This document shows positions 21,131 to 44,900 of a DNA stretch of 64,000 bases, in pieces. Every line of letters starts with the position of its first letter. Positions within the stretch are counted from its first letter, which is position 1. Source of the DNA: Quercus robur (taxonomy: Eukaryota; Streptophyta; Magnoliopsida; Fagales; Fagaceae); NCBI RefSeq assembly GCF_932294415.1, contig NC_065538.1, forward strand, positions 79,063,834 to 79,127,833, in the 5' to 3' direction. The notes beneath the pieces are model-generated. The model saw only the letters and a list, made by a program, of their open reading frames with translations, made no database searches and was not told where the DNA came from. The translations under genes were made by a program, and so were the position numbers.

Positions 21131-23357
21131 ATAGTTTTTTTTATATAATTATTGACGTGGTATTTTATAGTTAGTGGATGAGAAAAACTGTGTATGTAAT
21201 AATTGACCTATGTGAATCACAAATTTTAATGAAGATATAAAAATAAAAAATAAAAAATAAAAATTTGTGTCCCTCACATTATTCATGAATATATACTTTT
21301 TTAACTAATAAAGCTTACACCGTCAAACTCAAGTATATGACAATGCCATAAGAGCCGAAACTCATAAAATGGAAGAGCCAAACGCGGCTTTAAACAAAAG
21401 ATGAGAATCTAATTAGCAATCTAATTACCAAAATTACTTCATGTTTAACCAATCCAACAAAGTTCCACACTTTCAGCCCCAAAAGTCGATCAAATTGTCA
21501 AAAACCTTTGACAAAAGCACTCCAAAGTCCAACTAATCGAAATCATCCCACTCAATAACACTTTTCCTATCAATAAAAATCTGAAGGAGCAAACATGTAT
21601 TAAAACTTAAAAGCTGCCTCAAAGAACAGACACGGTTCTCAGGATCCACCCATATTTCACCTCAAATCATTTGATCTGTAAAAAAAATATATATAATAAT
21701 AATAATAACATACACCAATAAAGCTATTTTCATTAAACTAAAACATTGTTCATCACCCCATTCCTCACCGTACTAAAACCATTTTCCCAAAACAACTTGG
21801 TTAAAGGTTTCTAACTTTTATTTTTAAAACAAAAATTATAGTATTATTCAAATAATTTAAAATACATAATGAAACTTTTTTAAATTGTAGAAACTGTTGG
21901 TAATAGAATTTTAATTGTAGAAGTGTTTTTAAACACCAAAGGATCTTTTGTTGATTGGGATAAAAAGTATGTAAAATTAAGAGGCAAAAGGATTGTCATG
22001 TAGCATAAGGAGGGGAAAATAATAATAATAAACAATGACATCTTCACAGGTCCCCCCCTTCTACCATTAAACTCTATTTACCACTACACTACACTCTAAA
22101 CTTTCATTTTAACACCAACAGAACCCCCAGAGTCATGTATATCACTCTGGAGAATACGGTTGGTTTACTAGTGTTATTATTATATGAACATAGTGCACTA
22201 ATAAGAAAAGAGTTATGATATTCTATTCCTGTAACTTGTTTTGCCTATGTTAGAAACTTATATGCATATGCCACTGTGAATCATCTCAAAGCATTTTCTC
22301 GTTACTCTGCCAAAAAAACACTGCTGCAAGAATTTTTAAATTTCCTGGCTAAACCAGAAGGTCATATTAACAAACCAAAAATTAATGATTTTTAATGTAT
22401 GGCTGGCCAATTAGTGTTCTTATAAATTTCAGCAGCATCAACATCTGCTGAGATAGACTATTTGCATGACTCCATGATTTTGTGCTGCAAAAAAACCTCT
22501 AAATTTATAAAATCATTTATTCAAACGCTTCCTTGCATATTTCAGAATTTCGATGATTAAATCCAGCCACGATTATTATTATGTATATATTTGTACTCAA
22601 AAGAATCAGAAAAGGTGAAAGAATGAACGTCTTTAATTTTAGATACATCACTACCAAAGATCCACTCCATCTACGTAGGTATTACCCAAATTACATGTCC
22701 AAAAGCTATCAGAATTCAAGGAAGAATTAAAAATAAAATAAAATATGGGCACAAGCATACCTTTAGTATATCATAACAGCACCAGAAATGTGCTGAAAAT
22801 TTATCTTCACAGATGTCTACACTGAAGCAGCCAGCCGGAACTGATTATTAACCATAGCACCTATAGTTATGATGCAAATGATTTTACAAAATTGAAAATG
22901 AGAAAAGAAACTAGGAGAAAAAAACCAAAAAATAAAATAAAAATAAAAGTAATTTTTGTATTGGTAAGTCACATATGCAACCAATGACTTTTGACTTAAG
23001 GCTCAATGCCAAGAGATCACAATAATTACGCTTTGAAAGCAGTGACTGTGTGAGCTTCATCTTCATCTATTAAAAACTAGGTGGAAATTAAATTATTGGA
23101 AAAATATATCCAAATCAAATTAATTTATGTTGATAAAAACGGATAAATCAGAACTTACTTGTGAATATCTTTTTGTTTTTGTCATACACAAATTTTTTTT
23201 TTCCAATTGTGGTAGTTAGAAAATTTATTTCAAATATTCATTTCATTATAGTTAGGTGGGATATTTTCATAAATGCATGAAATGTTTATAAATAGGAGAA
23301 AACATTAATGATACCATTCAAATATGAGCATATATAGCAATTATGCAAGATACCATT
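21131..23357. other. Non-coding AT-rich spacer
   Basis: No supported ORF, no repeat family I recognise, and only short A/T and AAT runs. It ends at the target duplication ccatt (23353-23357) of the gypsy element. Confidence 0.6.
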
Positions 23358-24603
23358 TGTTGAGGTCTGAAAAAGAAAGGGCCATAATAAAATAAGCCCA
23401 AAACAGAAGAACAAGTCAAGCCCAAAAGAAAAAATTCAGGCTAAGCCCAAAGCAATAGATACGGATGACTCATGGGGGAATAAAAGGAAGGCCCAGAGGA
23501 TCCTGGAGCCTAGAAAAGAAAGAAGCGTCCAAAAAAGAAACCACGGCAGAGTGTAAAGAAGCAAGGATCCTCAATAAGCGTAGATCCCTTCAAGCACAAA
23601 TAAAAAGGAAGATTGGGACAAATCGATAGAAAGAAGACAGAAGAAGAAAAACAAGAAATAAAAGACGCGAGCGACCTCTCAATGGCACAGACAGAAAAGG
23701 ACCTCGGGGAACCAAGACAGGGAAGAAGAATGGTAACAAATGACTTTCAAAAATGGCAGAACAGGATTCCGCCCAAAAAGGAAAGAAAGGGAAAAGAGGA
23801 AGACGCCAGAAATGGGGATGCCGAGAAGGGCATACCTCAGCACGTCCCAAAGAGGATGGCCAACCAAAAGCTTTCGAAGGAATCAGAACCAAGAGAAGGA
23901 AAGAATGAGAGAAAACGGAAAAGGGGCTTACCGAGGCGATGGAGACAGAGCATGCTCTGTTTGCAAAAGAACAAAACAGGGGAACCAACGGTTCCCCGGG
24001 ATACCCAGAAAACTCCACTATAAAAGGAGGGGATGGGTTGTGAAGAAGACAGCAAGAAAAAAAGAAAGAAACACAAGAAAGAAGAGATTCTCTAGGAAAA
24101 ACTATCAGAAAATCTGTGCAGAAAGAAAATACTAAGGGAAAACAAATACTGCTTCCCGATATCCTGTAAAGGCCACTATGGCACATACTCGGATTCAACG
24201 AGAATCAAACTTCGCAAGTTTTGAAGGCTGAAATAGCCATTCAAGGCTGCAATTTTTGAGCTTGATTGGACCTTGTATCACGTCCTAGTGAGCTTTCTGT
24301 AATCAAACAGATAATGTCTTAATGAAATACTGTTTCATAATTCCCAGGATCCCCACAGCACTCTTTTTATCGTCTTGCTAATCCTGTTTTTTCTTCCTGA
24401 ACTTACGTTGTTAATTTTTGGCACTCTTCGATATCCTTGTTTGTAATTTTTTCTGTATGTTGTCAGGAGTATTCTCTGCATTCACTTGATTCTTAAACAG
24501 CTTGTTAGCTGCGGTGAGTCAAGGCCCGATCCACCAAATCCTTTCCTTTTCATTCAGGCTCGGGATCCTTGGGCCTGAGTATCCCGAAAAAGACACTCTC
24601 ACA
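23358..24603 (+). repeat. 5' LTR of gypsy element
   Basis: Starts TGTTGAGGTCTG and ends GACACTCTCACA. A plausible TATA box (ctataaaagg, 24018-24027) would start transcription about 30 bp downstream. A 202-codon minus-strand frame and 131-136-codon plus-strand frames in the LTR are present in both LTRs but show no known domain. I do not call them genes. Confidence 0.96.
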
Positions 24604-24606
24604 TTT

Positions 24607-24624
24607 TGGCGACTCCACTGGGGA
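24607..24624 (+). other. Primer-binding site candidate
   Basis: Just after the 5' LTR (3 bp gap) is tggcgactccactgggga. It starts with TGG, so it can pair with a tRNA 3' CCA end. I could not assign the tRNA with confidence. Confidence 0.7.
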
Positions 24625-24664
24625 CTGGGCAAAGAAGAAGGAAGAAACAATCCCTTCACAGAGA

Positions 24665-26890
24665 ATGCCTCCAAGACAAAGAAACAGCAAAGGAACTAAT
24701 GTGCCACCTACGGCCTCTGAGCCTGTAGGAGAAAACGAGGAAGTCTCCAGGCAAGGAGGTGGGATACCCTTGGTGGAACAGGAGGTTGTGTCGGAACAAA
24801 GACACGCAAGACAGGAACCAGACCTAATGGCCAGGATGACAACAATGTTAAAGGATCTGGAGCAAGAAGTTCGTCTTCTCAAAGAAGGCAGGACACAGGA
24901 AATCAGAGACAATTTTCCCCCTACTGGCCACCAAGATGGGACACAGCCGGAAGGAGGGTCAGTAGTGGGAGGAAGAGCCAACCCTCAGTACTTGACACTG
25001 GCAGACGTCAATGCCCTCTTGGAGCAAGAAAGGGAAAAACTCTCAGGGATCCCCAAGCAATTCTCTCGGGATCCCCCGTTCCCTCCAGAACTTCTTGGCA
25101 AACCATATCCTAAGGGATACGAACCCCCAAAGTTCCATCCTTTCGATAGGAGGAATGGAAGTGCCGTGGAACATGTGAGCAGGTTTGTCCACACTATGGG
25201 CCCCTATGCAGGAGACAAAGAATTATGTCTAAGGAAATTTGCCAAATCCTTAGTGGATAGGGCATACACTTGGTACACCACGCTGAGACCCGGGTCCATC
25301 AAGACCTGGGATGAGATGATGGAAAAATTCTGCGCCAAATATTACCCTGGTGAAGACAAAATCACTTTCCAGAACCTGCAAATGGTGAGGCAGAGACCTG
25401 GAGAAGATCCTGTTCAATTTATTAAAAGATTCGAAGATGTGTCCCTAGACTGTTATGGAGACTATGAAGAAAAGGAGCTCGTGGAAACCTGTATAGCCAA
25501 CATGCTTTTTGATTACAGACTCAACCTTGAAAATTTATGTATCACACAATTTGCTGACCTGCTACAAAGAACCAGAAGGACGGCGCAAACCATGAGAACA
25601 AAAAGGCTGCCCGCGTCCCAAGCTATGACAGCATCAGCAGGAGAGAAAAGGAAGAGACCAGATGGGAAGGTGTTTGAGGAACCACCAGTGATCCCATGCA
25701 CAGCTGAGGAGTTAAGCCATGTCCTAGACAAATGGATTGGAGATGGGGTTGTCAGGCCATTCACTGTGTCTAGGCCACCAACCGAAGAAGAAAGGAAGAA
25801 TCCTTTATTTTGCAGAATCCATAATTATGTGAAGCACTCCACTAAGGACTGCTGGACCCTTCGCAGGCTCTTCCACAAAAAGTTGAGAGAAGGAACCTTG
25901 GAACTCACTCAGAAGGAGCCAGAAGTGCAGAGGAACCCCTTGCCTAACCACAAAGGAAAAGGGGTGGTAGCAGTAGTAATACTTGGGAACCCGGCAGAAG
26001 CAGGAGAATCTGAAGGATCCTTCCACCCGAGCACAGTCAAAACCCTCCAGAAGAATCCTAAGTTCAGGTCACTATTCAATCAGTTAGAATTCGGACCAGA
26101 AGCAAGAAGGGTGGCCACAGAGTCTCTCATGAGCATAGCAGCAGATTCAGGGATGGAATGCTTTACAGCTGAGTCACATGCTAGTCGAGCTTTCCTAGAA
26201 ACAACCAATGCAATAACCTTCACTGATGAAGACATGGAGATTGAGCACCCAGACCACCGTAGACCCCTTTATCTCATGGCCACCATAAACGGTGTTCAAG
26301 TCAGAAGAGCACTGGTGGATACGGGGGCATCACTCAACCTCATTGCCTTAAGTACCCTGGAAGCTGTTGGCTTAGTTGACAGAAGGATCCTTGGTGCCCC
26401 CATGGAAATAACAGGATTTGGAGGATCGGTGGAATCAACAGAAGGATACGTACAGCTAGCCTTAAGGGTAGGGCCAATAGTAGCTTTGACAAGGTTTCAT
26501 GTGATCAATGCAGAAGTTTCTTATCACGTGTTGCTGGGACGCCCGTGGCTTCATAAACATCGCCTTATTCCATCCACATTCCATCAATGCATTAAAGGGA
26601 GATTGAATGGGAGGCCCATAAGGATCCCTGCCAATCATAATCCTTTCAGCCAGGGAGAAGTGAACTTTGCAGAAACGATGTTTTATAATGAGTTGGAGCC
26701 AGATGATGAGAACCCCACCCCGGGGACCCCGGGTGCACCTATCCTAGAAGAAGAAGAAGGAGGAAGGGGCACCCGTGACCTGAGAAACCTTTTAGAAAGA
26801 AAAAGACGAAAGAGGGAGCCCAGCTCTTCAGGATCCCGAGAATGTGTGGTGGTGCGGGAACCTGGGGGAAGGCTAATTTATCGTTTGTGA
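24665..26890 (+). CDS. gag-protease polyprotein of gypsy element
   Basis: 741 codons from the first ATG (MPPRQRN) after the PBS. Structural Gag forms the particle; protease cleaves the polyprotein. The N-terminal third is charged and disordered (with a LEQEVRLLKEG helix). The retrotransposon Gag domain follows (HVSRFVHTMGPYAGDKE, AYTWYTTLRPGSIKTWDEM, RRPGEDPVQFI-like segment, about residues 165-300). A zinc-knuckle variant C-x2-H-x4-H-x4-C (CRIHNYVKHSTKDC) lies near residue 380. The pepsin-like protease carries ALVDTGASLNLI near residue 550 and HVLLGRPWLH. The frame closes with TGA at 26888-26890, and the same frame continues into RT. It could therefore be a single nonsense change or a natural boundary. 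The Gag-protease part itself looks intact. Confidence 0.93.
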   Translation: MPPRQRNSKGTNVPPTASEPVGENEEVSRQGGGIPLVEQEVVSEQRHARQEPDLMARMTTMLKDLEQEVRLLKEGRTQEIRDNFPPTGHQDGTQPEGGSVVGGRANPQYLTLADVNALLEQEREKLSGIPKQFSRDPPFPPELLGKPYPKGYEPPKFHPFDRRNGSAVEHVSRFVHTMGPYAGDKELCLRKFAKSLVDRAYTWYTTLRPGSIKTWDEMMEKFCAKYYPGEDKITFQNLQMVRQRPGEDPVQFIKRFEDVSLDCYGDYEEKELVETCIANMLFDYRLNLENLCITQFADLLQRTRRTAQTMRTKRLPASQAMTASAGEKRKRPDGKVFEEPPVIPCTAEELSHVLDKWIGDGVVRPFTVSRPPTEEERKNPLFCRIHNYVKHSTKDCWTLRRLFHKKLREGTLELTQKEPEVQRNPLPNHKGKGVVAVVILGNPAEAGESEGSFHPSTVKTLQKNPKFRSLFNQLEFGPEARRVATESLMSIAADSGMECFTAESHASRAFLETTNAITFTDEDMEIEHPDHRRPLYLMATINGVQVRRALVDTGASLNLIALSTLEAVGLVDRRILGAPMEITGFGGSVESTEGYVQLALRVGPIVALTRFHVINAEVSYHVLLGRPWLHKHRLIPSTFHQCIKGRLNGRPIRIPANHNPFSQGEVNFAETMFYNELEPDDENPTPGTPGAPILEEEEGGRGTRDLRNLLERKRRKREPSSSGSRECVVVREPGGRLIYRL

Positions 26891-29800
26891 AGGTGCGCGG
26901 GACCCGAATGCATTGTGCAGGAAGGTCCCGGACCACCAAGCTGCATGATGGCCCAAGAAGAAATCCCAGAAGAACCAGTTAAGGAGGCCCAGATTCAGCC
27001 TGAGGAAGAACTAAAGGAAGTAGACTTGGGAACAGAACCGGGATCCCGAAAACCTGTTTTCATTAGCAGTCAATTGGTGGCTCAAGAAAGAGAACAACTG
27101 GTAACTTTACTTCAAAAATACAGAGATGTGTTTGCATGGACCTATGATGAGATGCCTGGTCTAGACCCGGAGTTGGTAGTCCATTCTCTTAATGTGGACC
27201 CGGGGATGAGGCCAGTAGTCCAACCAGCTAGGGTCTTCCACATTGAGGTAGAAGCTCAAATAGTCCAAGAGGTCAAGAAATTACTAACAGCTGGTTTTAT
27301 CAAACCCATCCAACACCCAAAATGGCTTTCCAACATTGTACCTGTGAAGAAGAAAAATGGTCAAATCCGCTGCTGTGTAGACTTTCGCAACCTGAACAAG
27401 GCATGTCCTAAAGATGAGTTCCCCTTGCCCAATATCGACCTACTTGTAGATTCAGCTGCAGGAAACTCAATGTTCTCGTTTATGGATGGGTACAGTGGAT
27501 ACAACCAAATCCACATGGCAGCCAAAGATGCAGAGAAGACGGCATTCAAAACTCCGATTGGGAACTTTTACTACACTGTAATGCCCTTTGGCCTCAAAAA
27601 TGCGGGGGCTACGTATCAACGGACCATGCAGCCATTTTCCATGACATGATGCATGAGGAGATGGAAGATTATGTAGACGATATTGTGGTCAAGTCAAAAA
27701 CCAAAATAGGACATTTCCAAGTACTTGAGCAAGTCTTTGAAAGATGCAGGAAATACAAGTTACGTATGAACCCCATGAAGTGCGCCTTTGGAGTGTCTGC
27801 TGGAAAGTTCCTTGGGTTCCTGGTACATCACAAAGGCATAAGCGTGGACCCAGCCAAGGCCACAGCTATTGCCACGATGAGAAGACCAACTACTGTTAGG
27901 GAACTCAAAAGCTTCCTGGGAAGGGTCTCCTATATCAGGAGGTTTGTGTCTGGTTTAGCCTCAGCTACAGCAGGCCTATCCAAACTATTGAAAAAGGGAA
28001 ATGAATTTACCTGGGGAACAGAGCAGCAGGAAGCTTTTCAAAGAATTCAGGGCATTATGAACCATCTGCCCACCCTCCAGGCACCAGTACGTGGGCGACC
28101 TCTGTTGCTATACTTAGCATCAAACTCTCAGGCAATAGGAGCTTTGCTGGTACAAGAAGATGACCAAGGAAATGAGCAGCCCATATATTATGTAAGCAGA
28201 ACACTCAAGGATACCGAGACCAGGTACCCCAGAATAGAGAAAGCCTGCCTAGTAATCGTTTATGCATCCCAAAGGGTACTTCTCAGCTCACCAAATCCTC
28301 TTGGTAACCAAGTCCCACCCCATAAAAGCACTCCTGCACCAGCCCCTTCTCACGGGAAGAATAGCACAATGGCTAGTGTTGCTCTCACAATATGATATAG
28401 GTATAAGAACTCCCAAGGCTGTCAAGAGTCAGGCCATAGCAGATTTGCTAGCTCAATTCCCAGGAAAGGAAGAAGGCCCACTGAGCGAAGAAATCCCTGG
28501 TGAGGTAGCAGTGACGGAGATCCCAGGGAAGAAATGGACCATGAGGTTTGACGGGTCAGCTACAACAACTTCAAATGGGGTAGGAATTGTACTAAGCTGC
28601 GAAAATGGGGATATCATGCCCCTGTCTTTCAAGCTTGGTTTCTCATGCTCTAATAATGCATCTGAGTATGAGGCATACTTAACTGGGTTGACTATAGCAC
28701 TCAGCATAGGAGTGAAACATATAAGAGTGCTGGGAGATTCTAATCTTGTAGTCTCCCAAGTGAAAGGTGACTTTGCATTACGGGAACAAAGCTTAGCAGC
28801 CTACAGGACTTGGGCACAAAGGCTGGAGATGGAATTTCAAACCTTCAGCATAGAATACACTCAAAGAAGTGAAAACAGGTTTGCAGATGCTTTTGCCACC
28901 CTGGGATCCCAAATACCATTTAATGGGAGGGATACGCTGATAAAAATAGGAAGGCAGGAACATTCTATTGTAAGGATCCTCCAAGGGATGTACCCCGGGG
29001 AATCCAAACAGTGGGACTGGAGGGACGAAGTCAAAGAAAGGATGAAAGAGGCGAGCCCTAGAGGGAACATCAAAGAACTAATGGATTACACTCAGATAGA
29101 AGGAGAATTGTATAGAAGACTGCCAGGAGGAATACTGTCCAGATGTATCACCGAGAAGGAAGGAAAGTTGAAACTAGAAGAATTACACGCCCAAGCATGT
29201 GGAGTTGCAGAAAAAGTCAGCCTATACAGAAGGATGCAACGCATGGGGTATTACTGGCCAGATATGGACAAGGAAGCAGCAATCATACAGGGGAAATGCA
29301 AGGAATGTCGTTTGGCAATTGATAAAGAAGAAAGCTACGCGGTGTTTATTGCAGAAGATTGGCGGGTTCCTTTCATAGGATACCTGGCTCGGGGGATTCT
29401 GCCAACCGACAAGAAACCGGCCCACAAGCTCAAAAAACTAGCGTGCAGGTATTTCTTGCAGAACGACATTTTGTTCAAAAAAGGATACCATGGGGATCCC
29501 CTCAGGTGCCTGGGACCAAAGGAAGCTAGAGAAGTAGTCAGAGAGGTGCACTCTGGAGATTTCGGAAGTCACCCAGGGAAGAGAAGGCTGTACAAGCAGT
29601 TACTGTTGTTGGGGTATTACTGGCCAACAATGAAAAGAGACTCTGAGGAGCTGGTCAAAACATGTCATGCTTGCCAAGTCCTAGGAAATGCAATTCACAC
29701 TCACCCAAATGTCCTACAGGATATGACGACGCCATGGCCTTTTCATACTTGGGGGCTCGATCTCATAGGGCCCATAAATCCTCCATCCAATGGTTATATA

Positions 29801-30581
29801 TGGATCCTGGCAGCCACGGAGCACTTTACAAAATGGGTAGAGGTCATCCCTTTGAAAAAAGCTACTGGAGCAGCTGTAGCAAATTTCATTCGAGACCACA
29901 TCATTACAAGGTTCAGGATCCCCAGAAGATTGATCAGCGACAATGGAACCCCATTCATAAACAAAGATGTGAAGGGATTAACTGAAGCATACCACATCAA
30001 GCATGGAAGATCTACCTCGTACTACCCACAAGGAAATGGCCAAGCTGAAGCTACTAATAGGGTAATATTAAAAATCCTTAAGAAAATGAAGCATGAGTAT
30101 GGAGGAAAATGGAGTGACCATCTGGCAGATGTGCTTTGGGCATGTAGGAGCTCTGTAAAGACAGCCACAGGATTCTCCCCATTCTCCCTTGTTTATGGAA
30201 CAGAAGCCATCAGCCCTGTGGAGTTAATCATTCCTACACCAAGGGTAGTTCTCGAGGAAAATCAGGGAGAAAGTGAGGACGCAAGCAATGAAAAGAGGCT
30301 AGTAGATTTGGAAGGAGTAGAAGAAGAAAGAGAACTGGCCAAGAAAAGGAGCCAAAGATACCAGCAAAGAATGACCAGAGCATATGCACAAGCAGTACGC
30401 CCCAGAGTGTTCACCAAAGGGCAATTACCTGCCAGGGCCTTCCAAGTTCACCCCAAAATGGGAAGGACCCTACATCATCAATGCAGCTCATGAAAGTGGA
30501 TATTATTACCTTGCCAAAGAAGATGGAACAGTCCTGACAGAGCCCATAAACGGGAAATGGCTGAAGCAATACTATGCATAA
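26891..30581 (+). pseudogene. gypsy pol (RT, RNase H, second RNase H, integrase), three frameshifts
   Basis: Pol copies the element RNA and integrates the DNA. RT spans 26.9-27.8 kb (KKNGQIRCCVDFRNLN, FMDGYSGYNQI, MPFGLKNAGATYQ, and the YVDD active site at about 27671). A first RNase H follows (LLLYLASNSQAIGALLVQE), then an archaeal-type RNase H (MRFDGSATTTSNGVG, NNASEYEAYLTGL, GDSNLVVSQVKG) and integrase with an HHCC-type zinc end (HSGDFGSHPGKRR, CHACQ) and the DDE triad in GLDLIGP, SDNGTPF and GQAEATN. Frame breaks: a 1-bp loss near 27631, just before the YVDD segment; a small indel near 28275 in the first RNase H; and a deletion with frameshift near 30430 in the integrase C-terminus. The tail resumes with SKFTPKWEGPY and ends at 30581. 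No chromodomain. The protein cannot be made as one chain. Confidence 0.93.
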
Positions 30582-30883
30582 GGACAAGGGGATCCCCAGT
30601 ACCTCAGGGTCCTTTCACCAGCTTCACTATCTGCTAAGTTCTTTTTTATTTTTGTCTTTTTATTTTTCAACCTTTATCAAGAATTCTGGTCTAAGATAAT
30701 TTTGTTCAGGAACATGTGATAGATTGACACTTTGTGGTCAATGCTGCACCAAAAGACTTTTTCTTTGTTCCTTAAAAAAAAATGACCATGTTTTAATGAA
30801 ATTCCTGTTTCTTCAACATTTAAGTTTTTCTTTAAATACTGCAAAGACCAAATGTGGATAAATTTAAGGAAGGATACCTGAGT

Positions 30884-30902
30884 CAAAAAAAAAAGGGGGA
30901 GA
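30884..30902 (+). promoter_or_regulatory. Internal polypurine tract after pol
   Basis: About ten A followed by GGGGGAGA, then atatgtaataccc. This looks like a plus-strand primer site followed by an LTR-like TGTAATACCC start, yet it lies 5 kb before the real 3' LTR. The 30,582-31,386 stretch around it is otherwise pol 3' tail without genes. Confidence 0.55.
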
Positions 30903-31386
30903 ATATGTAATACCCTTTTACATATGGCCCAGGATCCACCTCACAAATAATTTCAGATATCCCACAAACAGTTCCAAGTGCATAGGTCTAGGATCACAGA
31001 ATAAAAGTAAAATATCTAGGATACCTAGCCTAGCACTTGGCAAAAGGGGAACCTGTCAAAGTTCATGAACTGGGACCGTATCTAAAAAAAAAAAACATAC
31101 ATAGAGAAGGATACCAGTGTACCCAGTTCAGTACTTGCACAATAAATTACCAGGTACCTGGACCAGAACTTACAGTGAAGCCTGTGGAAACCATGGTCCA
31201 GGACTCAGGAAAGAAAAGAGTCACAAGAAAGTAAAGGCAATATATATATCCAAGGAAAAGGGCAGATTCACATACTAAGAAATAAGAAGCAGTTTTGAAA
31301 CACAAAAGAGAAAGCAAAGAGCAGAGCAATGTTCAAAAAAAAACTTATACAACCCCAAATTGTTCATGTAAATCTAAAAAAAAAGG

Positions 31387-34300
31387 CTAAGGAATGAGGC
31401 CGGCCAACAGGGGGGCATCCGGAGAAATAACAGGCACAACCAAAGTAGAAAGGATCCTCTGCCGCTTGACCTTCAAGTCTTGTAAAACCTTGTGAGCATG
31501 AGCCAAAGCTTCCTCAACAGCAGCTATCTCAGTATCTATACTCTTGAATGATTGCCTCTGAAATAGCATATGAACCAGCAGACGCAAGTGATCCAGCAGA
31601 AAAGACAAATTGAACTTGGCCTCTAGAAGGTCCTGCACCACCCCTCTCCACTCCAGAAGCTTTTCTTCAGACAAGGAATCTACAGAGGAATTCCTTAGGG
31701 AAATCAACACAGCACACAGCAACTCCATCAAAATATTGCCTAGAAAAACGCCTCCCCTGAAGCCGCTGGTAAAATCCCCGTGACTCTTGAGCAGGCTCTC
31801 TAGCAGCGGCAGGCATTCCACAGGAACAGAGAAGCGCAGGAAGCTGTCATAAGAAGACCCAAAAACATGAAAGTAGCTAGCAGGAAGACTGTTGAATTCC
31901 AAGAGATCAAAGCGAGCCAGGAAAGAGGAAAGCCTTGAATCAAGATCTGAGGCAGCCATCTTCGAGGCATCCCCCATCACCGTGTCACCACTTGCAGAGG
32001 CAGGAGGACTTGCAGCCTTTTGCTCTGGATGAAGGTCAGCAACTTCAACAGGTCTCACAATTCCTTCAGGGATAACAGGCTCAGAACCTGCAAAGCCTGT
32101 ATCAGTATTCAAAGAAAGAAGAAAAAGAAAAGGAAGAACAGATTTAGTCCTTTTTTAAAGGAGAGAAAAAGAAGAACAAACCGGTTCCAGTTTCTTGGGG
32201 CAGAGCCTCTTCTTCCTGATCTCCTGACTTCCCCGAAGATTCTGGGAAGGAACATAAAGCAAGTTGAAGAAAAGGTGAAGGACCAATGGCAAAGTGGCTA
32301 AAGGAAGGGATAGATGCAGGGGGCTTCGCCATATAAAAAAAAAGGGGGGGGGGGGGGGAAGAAAAAGGAAACACGATGGGAGCAGCTTGCACTCACCTTC
32401 TGAGCTCTCTGATTCTAAAGAAGAGGCAACACTGGGAGCAGATTTCTCACTGGTTTGACCTAAAAGGAAAAGGAAAAGGAGGAATTCAAGAAAAAAAAAT
32501 GGAAAAGAAAGTAAAAAAAAAAAAAATATAACGCTATTTCAAGGAAACAAGGTTTACCTGTTTGTTTGGATAGAGGAGTGTCTCCCAAAACACCTTTATC
32601 TGACAAGGATTGAGGAAACACAGTCCTGATAGGACTAGGAGTGCGTTCAAGATGGGGACTTTGAGATGACGGGATCCTAGAAGCTTTGGGATCCAGAGAA
32701 TCCTGGGAACCTTGCATCGGTTGCCCGGTTTCCTCAGCTGGATCATCAGTAGGGGGCTCCTCCCCCATGACAGGAAAAACGACTGAAAGAGCTGTGATAG
32801 TTTCCTCCCCCAGAGCCTTGTCAGTCACAGGAGGGGATACCTCCACCTAAAGGAAGAAGAAGTGGAGAAGGCAATACCAAGTTAAAGGAAGAAGAAGCGG
32901 AGAAGGCAATACCAAGTGAAAAAAAAAAAAAAAAAAAAAAAAGGGAGAAAAACACAACAGCAGGGAATGCTAACAACACAATGTCAGAACAAAAGGGAAA
33001 GAACAGAAGAAGGGGGAACACACGTACCACGTCGTCTCCAGAAGATTGACTCTTACCCTTCTTGTGATCAGACTTGCGCTTGGACTGCAAAGGAAATCAC
33101 CACTCGTCAGCAAAATAGAAAATGAGCGCAACAAGGTGAACAAAAAAAAAAAGAGAGAAGAAGGAAAGAAGTCTTGCCCTTCTCTCTCTCTCTCTACAGA
33201 TTCTTTGGAAGTCTTTTGCTTACTACGAGTACACCCAGAGGGTCCTAAAGGAGGCTGGGATACCAAACCAGAGGATCCTAAAGAACCATGGACTGAAGCA
33301 GTCACAGGAACCTGGGGAAAAGAAGACTCTACCTTGGTCTTCTTCCGGGTCCTTGAAACTAAAGGTTCCCTGACATCCTTGCCTTCCTGAGATGCCAAGT
33401 GTGCTTGAGATTTCCCCGTTTTCCTTCTTTTCGCCTCAGAGCCTATCTCCACACCCCCTGTACTTTCACCAACATCAGCAGCTTTCATTTTCTTCGACTT
33501 GACATCCTTACCTTTACTCGGAGCAGTGGCAGCACTTATTGTCTCTGTTGCACCCTTTTTGATGGGCACCTCAGAGGAAGCACCAATGATGAGACTATCA
33601 CCCAGCCAGGTCTCAGGAAAATCCTGTCCATAAGCCACCCAACCTCCCCTGGAGGCATGCCACTCTGCGAACCCAGTCTTGCTGCTTGCAGCAGCAGAAA
33701 CAATCCCAGCAGTAGGAAGGGATAAACGTCTATTGGCTATCGGAGCAGAAACAATGCTAGAATTCGGGACTTCCCGAACTGTACCAGTGCCAACATAGTC
33801 AACAAAAGATTTTTGTACTCTTCTCCAATAACTGGTATAGCCACTAGAAGCAAAGACTCCTCTCTGGGAGTTAGGCACTACAAATTGGGGGCTCCTCCGT
33901 GACCAATAAGAAAAGGCCTGCAGCCTCAAGAAAGGATCCAAGGAAGGAAGGGATGGCACCACATCGTTAAAAGCTGGCGGAATGTCCTGATCAAAACCAA
34001 ACTGTCGGAGCACCCGGTGCTCTGAATAATGAGTATATTTTGGGCCACTTAAAGAAGGCACAGGAAGCCAAGAGGGGCTAATGCAGGCAAGATAAGCCAG
34101 ACTGCCCTCATCACCACGGCGCAAGTCAAAGGTATTACCTGTAGAAGATAAAAAAGAAGACAACACAGAATCACATGCAAAGCCAGGACCAAACTCACGA
34201 GGGGATCTCCAATATAAGCTCCCTGCTTGGTCAAACAACTCCACAAGATTGAGGCCACCACCTTTCAAGCTAATCCAACGAAAAATAATGGGAAAGGCGT

Positions 34301-35396
34301 CAGTAGAATTGCCACAAAGACCCTTCACTATGTCGGGGGATCCTTGGAACTTGTCCTTCACAAATTTCAAATTTCTGCACTTAGCCAAAGTAGCTGCAGA
34401 ACGGTCCCACATGAAAATCTGAAGAATGGCACAGTGAAGAGATGAAGTGATCACATAACAAGAATCACCCTCAGCCTCATCTCCATGAAGCTGGTCCAGT
34501 TGAGAATAAACATGACCCAAAAACAGAGGGGCCAAAGGATACTGGGTACCTCGAGCCAACTTGATTGCCAACGGAAAAAACGAAGACTTAACTCCGTACC
34601 CAGGGAACTCACTAAACAAAAACTTACTAAGCCAAAAGGCCAGGAAACCGGCCCACCTCACTTCCTTATCCTTTTCACGAGAGAGGGTCATCACCCATCT
34701 CCCCATCCTAGCCGGCTTACCACCAGGAGAGGCGGAGCGACCACCAAAATGACCAAATAATTTCTCTTCTACCACGAGATCCTCACCAGAAAGGTTAATA
34801 TCAAAGGGATTCTCTTCACCAAACATCGGGAGGAGGAAGTTATTAACCACATCCTCCAAGGTGATCGTCAATTCACCAGTAGAAAAGAAAAAAGTATGAA
34901 GGGAAGGACACCAACGACGTACCAAATGCCTGAGCCCTTTGGCGTCTCTGAAACCCTCAAGGTTTCTGGAAATAGCCACTGCCTTTAGGATGCCGGCGCG
35001 CTCCAAACGACCCACAAACTCAACATCAGACAGTTCCTTGTCTACCCATATAGGCCAACCCTGAATCTTTCCCGGAACAAAATCAAAGAAAATAGGAACC
35101 GCCTCTCGGATTCCTTGTCTGATCTGGAGATCGAAAATCTTTCTAGGGTCAGGAACCTGGGCGGAACCAGCGAAACCCGCTTGGCCAGAAAACAGCCAAA
35201 CGTGAGGGGATGGAGGAGAATCACCATTAGATATATGAGGAAAAAATAAACTGAGAGAATACCAAGGATCCCGTAAAGGGAAGGCCGGACGTTCAGCAAC
35301 CTCGTGAGAATCGCTCGGAGCAGAACCAGAAGAACCTTCACCCTCAGAAGGACTGGGAGTACACTCTCTCCTCTTTCGAGAAGAAGAAGAAGCCAT
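31387..35396 (-). CDS. Antisense plant-mobile-domain (PMD) protein gene, six exons, intact
   Basis: On the strand opposite to gag-pol, exons at 35396-33198, 33084-33028, 32846-32558, 32459-32397, 32241-32182 and 32096-31387 join with GT-AG sites and consistent phases into 1,125 codons plus stop, with no lesion. The ATG at 35396 (MASSSSRKRR) was chosen as the first ATG in frame; the hydrophobic stretch upstream would need a non-ATG start. Residues about 100-560 match the aminotransferase-like plant mobile domain: LRHLVRRWCPSLHTF, GELTITLEDVVNNFLLPMFG, RWAGFLAFWLSKFLF, LARGTQYPLAPLFLG. Next is a Lys-rich, Ser-rich region with a likely nuclear signal (SKRKSDHKKGK, exon 2), acidic linkers in exons 3-5, and a helical C-terminus (KSIDTEIAAVEEALAHAHK). 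PMD proteins occur in plant transposons and in the host proteins MAIN and MAIL1. Function in the element is unknown. Confidence 0.86.
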
Positions 35397-35895
35397 GGAA
35401 ACAACACACACTATGAGAAGAAAAGAGATTGAAAGTGCGAAAGGGAGGAAGACCAGAGTAACAGAGAAGAAGAGAAAAAGAAACACAAAGAGTGAAAAAC
35501 TCAGAGAAGCAAAGTGATAAGATGAAACGGCTACAATAAAGGCGCAAATAGCAGTTGGGGAAAACAATTTATGGAAAGACGCGCCAGTTGCCAAGAAATT
35601 TAATTTGAAGTAGGGATTAATCAGCAGTTATTAATGAGAAATAACGGGAAACGAGAAAAGTGGGTAGAGGAGTTTTACCTCAAATACCCAACTGCCACGT
35701 CCCGTATAAAGAGGAAGCTGCAAAAAAGTAAGGGAATACAATACGCAAAAAGGAGGTGACTAAAAGCAGCAGAAAAGAGTCGGGATCCCAAGTAAAGAGG
35801 AAGGGAACCCAGTAGAAGTTGAAAAAAAAAAAAGGGGGATACCACGAAAATCTTAGGAAACCTAAATCACTCACGCGTGGGTTTCAGGCAACCCA

Positions 35896-35913
35896 CGAGC
35901 TCGGGGGGCTAAA
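35896..35913 (+). promoter_or_regulatory. 3' polypurine tract candidate
   Basis: cgagctcggggggctaaa directly precedes the 3' LTR. It is a weak polypurine tract (interrupted by pyrimidines), in contrast to the textbook one at 30,884. Confidence 0.45.
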
Positions 35914-37159
35914 TGTTGAGGTCTGAAAAAGAAAGGGCCATAATAAAATAAGCCCAAAACAGAAGAACAAGTCAAGCCCAAAAGAAAAAATTCAGGCTAA
36001 GCCCAAAGCAATAGATACGGATGACTCATGGGGGAATAAAAGGAAGGCCCAGAGGATCCTGGAGCCCAGAAAAGAAAGAAGCGTCCAAAAAAGAAACCAC
36101 GGCAGAGTGTAAAGAAGCAAGGATCCTCAATAAGCGCAGATCCCTTCAAGCACAAATAAAAAGGAAGATTGGGACAAATCGATAGAAAGAAAACAGAAGA
36201 AGAAAAACAAGAAATAAAAGACACGAGCGACCTCTCAATGGCACAGACAGAAAAGGACCTCGGGGAACCAGGACAGGGAAGAAGAATGGTAACAAATGAC
36301 TTTCAAAAATGGCAGAACAGGATTCCACCCAAAAAGGAAAGAAAGGGAAAAGAGGAAGACGCCAGAAATGGGGATGCCGAGAAGGGCATACCTCAGCACG
36401 TCCTAAAGAGGATGGCCAACCAAAAGCTTTCGAAGGAATCAGAACCAAGAGAAGGAAAGAATGAGAGAAAACGGAAAAGGGGCTTACCGAGGCGATGGAG
36501 ACAGAGCATGCTCTGTTTGCAAAAGAACAAAACAGGGGAACCAACGGTTCCCCGGGACGCCCAGAAAACTCCACTATAAAAGGAGGGGATGGGTTGTGAA
36601 GAAGACAGCGAGAAAAAAAGAAAGAAACACAAGAAAGAAGAGATTCTCTAGGAAAAACTATCAGAAAATCTGTGCAGAAAGAAAATACTAAGAGAAAACA
36701 AATACTGCTTCCCGATATCCTGTAAAGGCCACTATGGCACATACTCGGATTCAACGAGAATCAAACTTCGCAAGTTTTGAAGGCTGAAATAGCCATTCAA
36801 GACTGCAATTTTTGAGCTTGATTGGACCTTGTATCACGTCCTAGTGAGCTTTCTGTAATCAAACAGATAATGTCTTAATGAAATACTGTTTCATAATTCC
36901 CAGGATCCCCACAGCACTCTTTTTATCGTCTTGCTAATCCTGTTTTTTCTTCCTGAACTTACGTTGTTAATTTTTGGCACTCTTCGATATCCTTGTTTGT
37001 CATTTTTTCTATATGTTGTCAGGAGTATTCTCTGCATTCACTTGATTCTTAAACAGCTTGTTAGCTGCGGTGAGTTAAGACCCGGTCCACCAAATCCTTT
37101 CCTTTTCATTCAGGCTCGGGATCCTTGGGCCTGAGTATCCTGAAAAAGACACTCTCACA
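35914..37159 (+). repeat. 3' LTR of gypsy element
   Basis: Same length as the 5' LTR, with about 18 substitutions and no indels noticed. TATA-like ctataaaagg at 36574-36583. Followed by the target duplicate ccatt (37160-37164). Confidence 0.96.
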
Positions 37160-37164
37160 CCATT

Positions 37165-41512: not shown

Positions 41513-41636
41513 CATGTCTCGGCCCATCAATCCATGCTGAGTCAAATTTTAGATTTTTCTAATCCTTGACGGTACATGTCTCGGCCCATCAATCCATGCT
41601 GAGTCAAATTTTAGATTTTTCTACTCCTTGACGGTA
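41513..41636. repeat. 62-bp direct tandem duplication upstream of first CRK
   Basis: Units 41513-41574 and 41575-41636 (catgtctcggcccatcaatc...) differ at very few bases. They lie about 330 bp before the CRK ATG, in the likely promoter. I did not see the duplication upstream of the second CRK. Confidence 0.92.
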
Positions 41637-41963
41637 CAGAATTCAACATAAGTTTGGTGGGAAACTGATCAATATACCCAAGCATGCCAAATTGCCAAAT
41701 TGACTTTTTCTAGAAGTAAAGAAAAAGCTAGAACACTAATAACTCCGATAGCGTTGATGACTTTTCAGCTCTTGTAATATACTCTTACTCGATAAGATTT
41801 TTTTTTTATGAATCTTTTTTAACATGAATGTGAGGAAAACTAACGTTTTATATGTGACTTCTTTCGTTCTTTGTAATATGCTGGTAGATATTTTCATTCA
41901 TATTAAACATAAGCATATGCATATGTTCATGGACGAATTTCTGTTGAAGGCATAAGAGTCAAA

Positions 41964-44900
41964 ATGTTTTACCTCCTCCACAACACCACAGCCTTTCTGT
42001 TAATATTATGTGTAGTCTTTGCGCTTACCAGCTCCATTATTTCCCAGCCAGTCTACTTTGCCCACAGTTGTTTAGATCAATCAAATGAAACCGCCAACGC
42101 CGATTACAAATCCAACCTCACAGTCTTGTTGAAATCTCTATCATCTAAGGCTTCCCAAAACTACAGCTTCTACAATGAAAGCTCTAATATTGGCATCTAC
42201 GGCCTCTACCTCTGCCGAGGTGATGTTTCTAATGAAACCTGCCAAATCTGTCTGAGCAATGCGACCCAAGATATCACAACTCGGTGCCCATCTAATAAAT
42301 CTGCAATTATATGGTACGATAAATGCATGTTAAGGTATTCCAATGTTAGTTTCTTTGGAGTGGCATCGTGGTCACCAGCGATTATTGGCCAGAATACTGC
42401 TAACCAACCTGATTTTTACTCGCTTACTCTGTTGGATGCTCTAATAAATCGTGTCAATGTAACGGAGAAGTTGTATGACGCTGATAATCTGACAGTGATA
42501 TTGAGAGGACAGTCCGTGATAAGTTATGGGTTGGTGCAGTGTACTAGAGATATTGATGGTGGTTTATGTGTCCAGTGCTTAAATGGCTTGATGGATTTTG
42601 CCAAAGATTGTTGCCAAGCCAAAATAGGGTGGCGAATTGTAGCCCCAAGTTGCAATCTGAGGTACGAGAACCAAAGTTTCACGGATCAACCACCAGCAAC
42701 GCCGTTACAACCACCACCACCGCCCCAATCCGAGCCTCCAGCACCACAGCCGCCGCCTGGGAACGGTAAGTCATATAGATTTGGTATTTTCATGGAAATC
42801 TACTGCTCAATATTTTGGGCTTATTAAATTGTTCAATTATTATATATTACTCAGATTTTTTAAAGTTCTAATTTAATAAATTAATCTAATTCTTTTATTA
42901 TTTTAATGAAAATTTCAATGGACTTGGTTTAGATCTAGTGTATTCAATGCACCAGACCTGGTCAAATGGTGACATATGTCCAAAAGTGGACATGAGTCAC
43001 CATCTCAACGGGTCCAGTGTCCAGCAAGTCTAACCCAATTTCAAAATCTTATCGATATTATGTAGTATTAGTATTAGATGTGATTTTTTTTCTCAATCAA
43101 GCCATTCTTAAATAATTTGTAAATTTACTAAATCTTATCTCATTTGATATTATATATTATATATTAGATGCTTTGATTTTTTTTTTCTTTTTACCTTTTT
43201 TATCCAGAAAAAACTTCGAATGAGATAAGACTTAATTGGCAAATTTAAAAATTATTTGAGAAAGGCCTGATTGGAGGGGAAACAGATTTTAATCAAAGGA
43301 CTTAGGATCTGTTTGGTTGGAATGATAGAAATTAAAGAGCGGATAGAAAAATGGGAAGATAGAAAAAATTTTATTTTTCTCTCATTTGTGTTTGATTGGG
43401 AGAGAGGAAAAGTGAAGGGATTGAAAATTTTTTGTTTAATTGAGAAAAAAAGTGAGAGAATAGAAAATATAATTTATATAAATTGACACAGCCCTTACTA
43501 ATTCCAAATCATGGGAAAATTAGTAGGTACTATAGTTTAGCAAGATGGTCGACCTAACATTACTATGTCAGAGGAGTCAGTACCATGTTGTTGTATTCCC
43601 AAAATATAAAAAGTTATAATTCAATTAATTAATTAATTTTGTTACCGTTTGACATGGAGATAACAATTATCCAACTCATTTTAATGGAGCAATTCTGTCT
43701 CCTGTGTTCTCAAAGACCAGGTGTAAACTGTAAAGTATTAGTATTAGATGATCGAATACTTTATATATATATATATATATACACTATAAATAAAAAAACA
43801 GAGTACAAAGGATATATAATAGCAGTTTTAGAGTGATAGAGCATCCACATCAGTTGGTGGATACTCTTCTATAATACAAAAACTTCTTCATTTTGCACAT
43901 TTTGACCAAAAAACCTCCCACATCAGCTCATGTAAACCTGTGTAAAATCATCTAAAAATTTCCATGAGCTACAGTAACCATGCATATATACACGGTTACT
44001 GTAGCTCGTCTATACATTATTATAATAATTTCTAATTTCGCTTGTTTTTTTCTCTCTCTTCTCCATCTGCACAACCAACACCCTCATCATCATCTGCTTC
44101 TTCCTCTGATACACACACTCCCACAGTCAAAATCAAAAATCAACCACAAAATCACCCAGAAACACCACAAAACCAAACACACCCACACATGGACACACCA
44201 ACGGAGACAGAGAGAGTGGATCGGAACTTGTGGCAGATCGGCGTGCTTGGATCGGCGTTCTTCTCGCCGTGCTTGGATCAGAGACAGAGAGAGTGGATCG
44301 GCGCTTGTGGCGGATCGGCGTGCTTGGATCGGAGTGTTTGGATCGGCGTTCTTCTCGCCGTGCTTGAATCGGAGTTCTTCTCGCCATGCTTGGATCGGAG
44401 ACAGAGAGAGTGGATCGGCGCTTGTGGCGGATCGGCGTGCTTGGATCGAAATGTTTGGATCGGCGTTCTTCTCGCCGTGCTTGGATCAGAGTTCTTCTCA
44501 CCGTGCTTGGATCGGAGACAGAGAGAGTGGATCGGTGCTTGTGGCGGATCGGCATGCTTGGATCAGAGTGCTTGGATCGGCGTTCTTCTCGTTGTGCTTG
44601 GATCGAAGTTCTTCTCGGCGCCGTGCTCCCTGCTTGGATCGAAAGTTCAGAATGTTTGGAATAGAGAGGAGTGAAAATCTTGGAATAGAGAGGAGTTTCA
44701 GAGAAACTCTAGAATAGAGTCTCGTGAGTGGAGAGAGAGAGAGAGGCTCGTGAGTGAAGAGTGGAGAGAGAGGGTATGGAGAGATAGACCAAGAGGGAGA
44801 GACCGGGTATGGAGAGATAGAAGAGAGAGAGAAAGAAATCAGAAAATATGATAGAGAGAGAGAGAGAGAGAAAGCGCGTATAAAAACGGGGAATGGGTTA

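Follow-up and report, generated by a model that had tools for sequence, protein, structure and literature searches.

A predicted multi-exon antisense gene with a plant mobile domain in a young Tat-type retrotransposon of Quercus robur

Why does a retrotransposon with a broken pol carry a long, open gene on its other strand? In the window analyzed here—64 kb of the Quercus robur genome, the whole stretch of DNA under study—a minus-strand protein-coding gene (35396-31387) with a plant mobile domain (PMD) lies between the integrase region and the 3′ LTR of such an element. We consider it rather probable (about 0.6) that an element of the Tat lineage carries here a typical accessory PMD gene, in antisense orientation, that its product is a nuclear factor directed against host silencing, and that the young age of the insertion explains why the gene is unbroken.

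The element and its sense strand

The window contains a single full-length Ty3/gypsy element of Tat type (23358-37159, about 13.8 kb). The 5′ LTR (23358-24603, plus strand), with its TG...CA boundaries read from the sequence, and the 3′ LTR (35914-37159, plus strand) are both 1246 bp long. The two copies differ by 18 mismatches and no gaps, 17 of the 18 being transitions. The target-site duplication CCATT, read from the sequence, is present on both flanks (23353-23357 on the left and 37160-37164 on the right), and the element is therefore one full-length insertion. A putative primer binding site, assigned by position only, lies 3 nt past the 5′ LTR (24607-24624, plus strand). The insertion is fairly young, with its age expressed as an LTR divergence of 1.44% and not by a clock. 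The integrase region has relatives at up to 87% identity in Castanea and in one ENA record.

Outside the element, the window also holds an ORF with two Stress-antifung (PF01657) stretches (41913-42827, plus strand; 114.8 bits), which resembles the extracellular portion of a cysteine-rich receptor-like kinase. A tandem array of a 117-bp unit (44238-44617; 3.2 copies, 91% matches) has open frames on both strands, and a 62-bp unit is tandemly duplicated (98%) at 41513-41638.

The gag-pro ORF (24518-26890, plus strand, stop to stop), with gag (PF03732) and protease (PF13975) domains, is unbroken and ends in a TGA. It is followed by the RT–RNase H–extra RNase H–integrase region (26891-30580, plus strand), which was delimited from ORFs, Pfam matches and relatives and contains three frame changes. 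In the ORF at 28256-30493, Pfam places RVT_3 at residues 98-215, the integrase zinc finger at residues 421-474, and rve at residues 495-591. A partial RT_RNaseH match upstream of RVT_3 scores 14.3 bits, under the cut-off of 24.8, and relatives carry PF17917/PF17919. A second RNase H is thus present between the RNase H and the integrase, an arrangement that distinguishes Ogre and Retand, the Tat elements of angiosperms, according to Neumann et al. (2019, PMC6317226).

Is the pol of this copy damaged, and is the damage a trait of the family? The first-pass annotation reported three frameshifts and possibly a nonsense codon. As compared to four intact JGI relatives, the frameshifts are borne out near 27.6, 28.28 and 30.43 kb. 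Among the 120 listed of the 241 matches, the relatives that match both sides of each point read straight through it in 50 of 50, 72 of 74 and 62 of 63 cases, respectively; the damage is thus no feature of the family. Moreover, some JGI relatives have a pol ORF of 1,180-1,266 aa in which no pol domain is missing, and the earlier suggestion that the family moves non-autonomously with the antisense gene as cargo is therefore not supported.

The nonsense codon fared differently. Gag-pro and pol are two ORFs in the same frame, with one TGA (26888-26890) between them. At least 12 of the 62 relatives with an RT-side match begin at 26891-26900, just past this TGA, and in two of the relatives, P0114 and P0108, the alignment opens at 26900. 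The two ORFs are joined in seven predicted proteins (six from beech and one from Prunus), in which the gene predictors may have placed introns. A lesion at this codon is unlikely, since the pol of many relatives starts there, and the TGA is probably the usual gag-pro/pol boundary. In Ogre, by comparison, gag-pro and pol are reported to be on average 274 bp apart, separated by an intron, while only a stop codon is seen between them here (PMC6317226).

The antisense gene and its introns

The longest minus-strand ORF in 31387-35627 extends over 885 aa from stop to stop, while the maximum among 500 dinucleotide shuffles was 248 aa, and a chance frame was rejected on this ground. The possibility that the frame is the shadow of a sense ORF was also rejected, as the only plus-strand stop-to-stop frames of at least 120 aa inside 31387-35396 measure 138 and 120 aa. 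Exon 1 (33198-35396) contains the start codon, the PMD at residues 136-524, and the peptide CTRSK shortly before the donor. The PMD scores 112.1 bits against PF10536 (E 4.4e-32), as compared to the Pfam gathering cut-off of 34.9, and thereby places the protein in this family.

What supports the first intron? Several JGI ORFs read ...GRTRSKSGPK and then run into a hydrophobic, F/L-rich tail, while the beech proteins sharing GRTRSKSGPK continue with a polar stretch instead. In a second subfamily, ...RTRSKRKA(V/A)EEQV(R/K)SQ is followed by AKRKIGDE in the beech protein P0009, and by another tail in the JGI protein P0007. The motif [RC]TRSK is present in 54 of the 88 beech proteins and 9 of the 14 JGI proteins. 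In the window, the peptide at the predicted donor (33198) is ...CTRSKQKTSKES, and exon 2 opens after the acceptor (33084) with SKRKSDHK, which resembles the beech AKRKIGDE. The beech proteins are gene predictions, and the JGI entries appear to be single ORFs called without splicing. The peptide that is shared through the TRSK region and then diverges between the two sets therefore supports intron 1, as judged from protein comparison.

The remainder of the gene was modeled from splice signals. Exon 2 (33028-33084), the acceptor of which is supported by the resemblance to the beech proteins, has alternative donors. It is followed by the predicted exons 3 (32558-32846), 4 (32397-32459) and 5 (32182-32241), and by exon 6 (31387-32087), which encodes a conserved C-terminal domain with a weak likeness to PEARLI-4 and the stop codon, and for which other acceptors are possible. 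All six exons are on the minus strand. An error-free six-exon join had been claimed for this locus, and such a GT-AG join without a stop does exist; the model used here encodes 1,122 aa. The join is not unique, however, because 126 of 3,360 donor/acceptor combinations, drawn from candidate windows picked by eye, keep the frame. The absence of an error thus says little for the middle exons. We scored 144 splice variants, including 18 that skip at least one exon, against a beech profile (74 of the 104 matches, with a length of 1,050-1,300 aa). The scores ranged from 727.0 to 738.0 bits among the rows listed, a variant without exon 4 fell within 0.3 bits of the best, and no single model was singled out by this scoring.

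The middle exons are plausible in their predicted form, but not unique. The T content is 39-60% in the predicted introns and 13-32% in the exons. In addition, a 35-bp tandem duplication (32848-32921), the unit of which is not a multiple of three, is located in predicted intron 2, where non-coding sequence would allow it. The encoded protein would consist of the PMD, a low-complexity linker, and the C-terminal domain, about 1,120 aa in all.

Homologues, selection and rival explanations

A homology search, in which only the 7,995 candidates sharing the most words were scored and the classes were sorted by hand, yielded 104 PMD homologues: 88 from Fagus sylvatica, 14 from JGI, one from Lithocarpus, and one from Hibiscus. 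Most of them are long, and nearly all show 26-42% identity over the matched part; the Lithocarpus protein shows 71% identity over 13% of the query. Scans of viral contigs and prokaryote contigs confirmed no relative, and a PDB sequence search with exon 1 found no match at E values up to 10. The AlphaFold models of the PMD part had mean pLDDT values of 37.4 (732 aa, 32 sequences) and 42.1 (563 aa, 58 sequences), and were thus too poor for a fold search.

The C-terminal domain recurs in the family. In 78 of the 88 beech proteins, the predicted protein is also matched past its residue 870, and in all 78 this match lies downstream of the PMD. The match to the last-exon region is absent from the other 10 beech proteins, all 14 JGI proteins, and both NCBI homologues; for the JGI ORFs this is expected, because they look unspliced. 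The last-exon domain scores 126.6 bits against the beech profile. Against the Pfam family PEARLI-4 it scores 27.4 bits, under the cut-off of 29.9, and PEARLI-4 matches at E 0.01 or better were obtained for 9 of the 31 members of set A2.

For two of the PMD proteins from JGI, a pol protein from JGI sits on a contig of identical length (67,146 and 52,582), which suggests that PMD is linked with pol. The later insertion of a nested gene into the element was rejected, as the homologues are apparently linked to related pol genes. In this putatively linked JGI pair, the PMD proteins are 96.7% and the pol proteins 99.4% identical. The window shares 34.7-37.1% identity with the PMDs of seven JGI proteins, but 56.7-85.4% with the pol pieces of four JGI relatives. 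The PMD thus diverges faster than pol, and either weak constraint or an arms race would fit this difference.

Is the gene kept by selection, and at which level? If the three frame changes were scattered randomly across the coding sequence—gag-pro, pol and PMD, 9,418 bp in total—the probability that none falls in the PMD would be 0.265, and the probability that all fall in pol would be 0.06. The contrast between the intact PMD and the broken pol is therefore not significant, and can be had without selective sparing here. The gag-pro of this copy is also unbroken. We infer that the PMD is intact in this copy since the insertion is young, and not because it was spared after insertion. At the family level, both domains are retained at about 36% identity, a distance at which neutral frames would be lost, and this retention argues for purifying selection. 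The first-pass annotation proposed that the protein is maintained because it helps the element. This proposal finds support for the family, given the two-domain proteins in beech, but its argument from an intact gene beside a broken one in this copy does not.

Could the gene instead be a passenger, inherited from an ancestor, without a present role, and open here through a young insertion? The LTR divergence of 1.44%, the chance of 0.265 for a lesion-free PMD and the faster divergence of the PMD than of pol would all agree with this. We nevertheless regard it as unlikely, because long frames and the order of the two domains persist at about 36% identity. Equally unlikely, in our estimation, is that the antisense transcript matters and not the protein, by pairing with the genomic RNA and feeding siRNA/phasiRNA control. 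A role of the transcript has been raised for antisense ORFs by Vicient and Casacuberta (2020, PMC7264820), and 175 phasiRNA loci at PMD genes are reported from tea (PMC10673657). A role of the RNA only, however, needs neither of the two protein domains that are recognizable in homologues at about 25-40% identity, although RNA and protein roles could coexist.

The original proposal, that selection retains the antisense gene after insertion as pol decays, or else that the family is mobilized non-autonomously with this cargo, appears improbable. The location of all three frame changes in pol (chance 0.06) speaks for it, but there are only three lesions, gag-pro is intact, and the long pol ORFs of the relatives read through the breaks. 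The recent capture of a host PMD gene of the MAIN/MAIL type is the least probable of all. The presence of introns recalls a chromosomal gene, and the capture of PMD-C genes by MULEs is on record (PMC5418596). The best homologues, however, belong to a large family in beech and to a set of JGI ORFs with an apparent linkage to related pol genes, and the gypsy PMDs are reported to form clades of their own (PMC5418596).

Possible role of the protein

How would an antisense gene with introns be expressed and passed on? In the reading that we prefer, of an accessory gene directed against host silencing, its transcription would start at a promoter of its own on the minus strand, within or beside the 3′ LTR. 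The LTR edge lies 517 bp upstream of the start codon, and the minus strand contains no TATAWA box within 1.9 kb upstream of the start codon. By the general rules of splicing, introns of the minus strand are not removed from plus-strand RNA. The genomic RNA that is reverse-transcribed would be the plus strand, which does not read the minus-strand introns; the introns would thus survive retrotransposition, and the protein would be made from the integrated DNA. As an accessory factor, this protein would be active in the nucleus, where it would most likely compete with or weaken the PMD proteins that belong to the MAIN/MAIL1 silencing pathway of the host.

This arrangement has counterparts in print. 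PMD is the most frequent extra domain in the gypsy consensus sequences of a 121-genome screen (PMC9289625), and the clades PMD-A1 and PMD-A2 are described as exclusively gypsy-encoded, apart from MAIN/MAIL (Ikeda et al. 2017, PMC5418596). The window gene shares with them a PMD inside a Ty3/gypsy element of an angiosperm; in the search for its placement in PMD-A, the region matched one Lithocarpus protein among 345 candidates. MAIN/MAIL1 share the PMD Pfam family with it, but are host genes of the clade PMD-C, and are likened here by their description (PMC7156037, PMC9899485). For Ogre, 57% of the elements are reported to contain a PMD (PMC6317226). The likeness to Ogre (PMC6317226) covers the Tat lineage, the extra RNase H, probably the separate gag-pro and pol ORFs, and the PMD-bearing extra ORF, which is present here; the window ORF is antisense and predicted to be multi-exon.

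All of the recently active Retand clusters in one study are reported to have antisense ORFs upstream of the 3′ LTR, and 57 of 104 such ORFs encode Transposase_28 (Vicient 2025, PMC11963269). The window shares with Retand an antisense coding region between pol and the 3′ LTR (PMC11963269). Transposase_28 (PF04195) was absent at E values up to 1 from the minus strand of 33000-35396, 32460-32846 and 31390-32154 in the Pfam search. The antisense gene gene23 of Grande, which likewise precedes the 3′ LTR as an accessory gene, is credited with its own promoter and a nuclear protein in a 2020 review, which describes it without a PMD, unlike the window gene (PMC7264820).

Among titles and the beginnings of abstracts, we found no antisense PMD gene that combines several introns with a PEARLI-4-like end, although Steinbauerova 2011 and Babu 2006 may describe the arrangement. 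Silencing evasion has already been proposed in print. In our judgment, the locus adds another member to a known class of passenger genes, as gypsy PMD genes, antisense ORFs of the lineage, and the anti-silencing idea are all in print.

A more specific version of the preferred reading can be drawn: the antisense introns would mark the protein as a product of integrated DNA, and the PMD with its PEARLI-4-like end would form a decoy that jams MAIN/MAIL1-PP7L, clade-wide and in an arms race with the host. We hold this version to be unlikely; if true, the fast evolution of the PMD would be the trace of that arms race.

What does this locus mean for the family? A single damaged copy with an intact passenger gene is not by itself evidence of selection. 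To our knowledge, no function has been established for the antisense accessory genes that plant retrotransposons carry. The 2020 review calls for a search for antisense and spliced transcripts (PMC7264820). The gene model derived from the present locus includes one supported intron and a second conserved domain, and can serve for tests of splicing and of selection on Fagaceae data.
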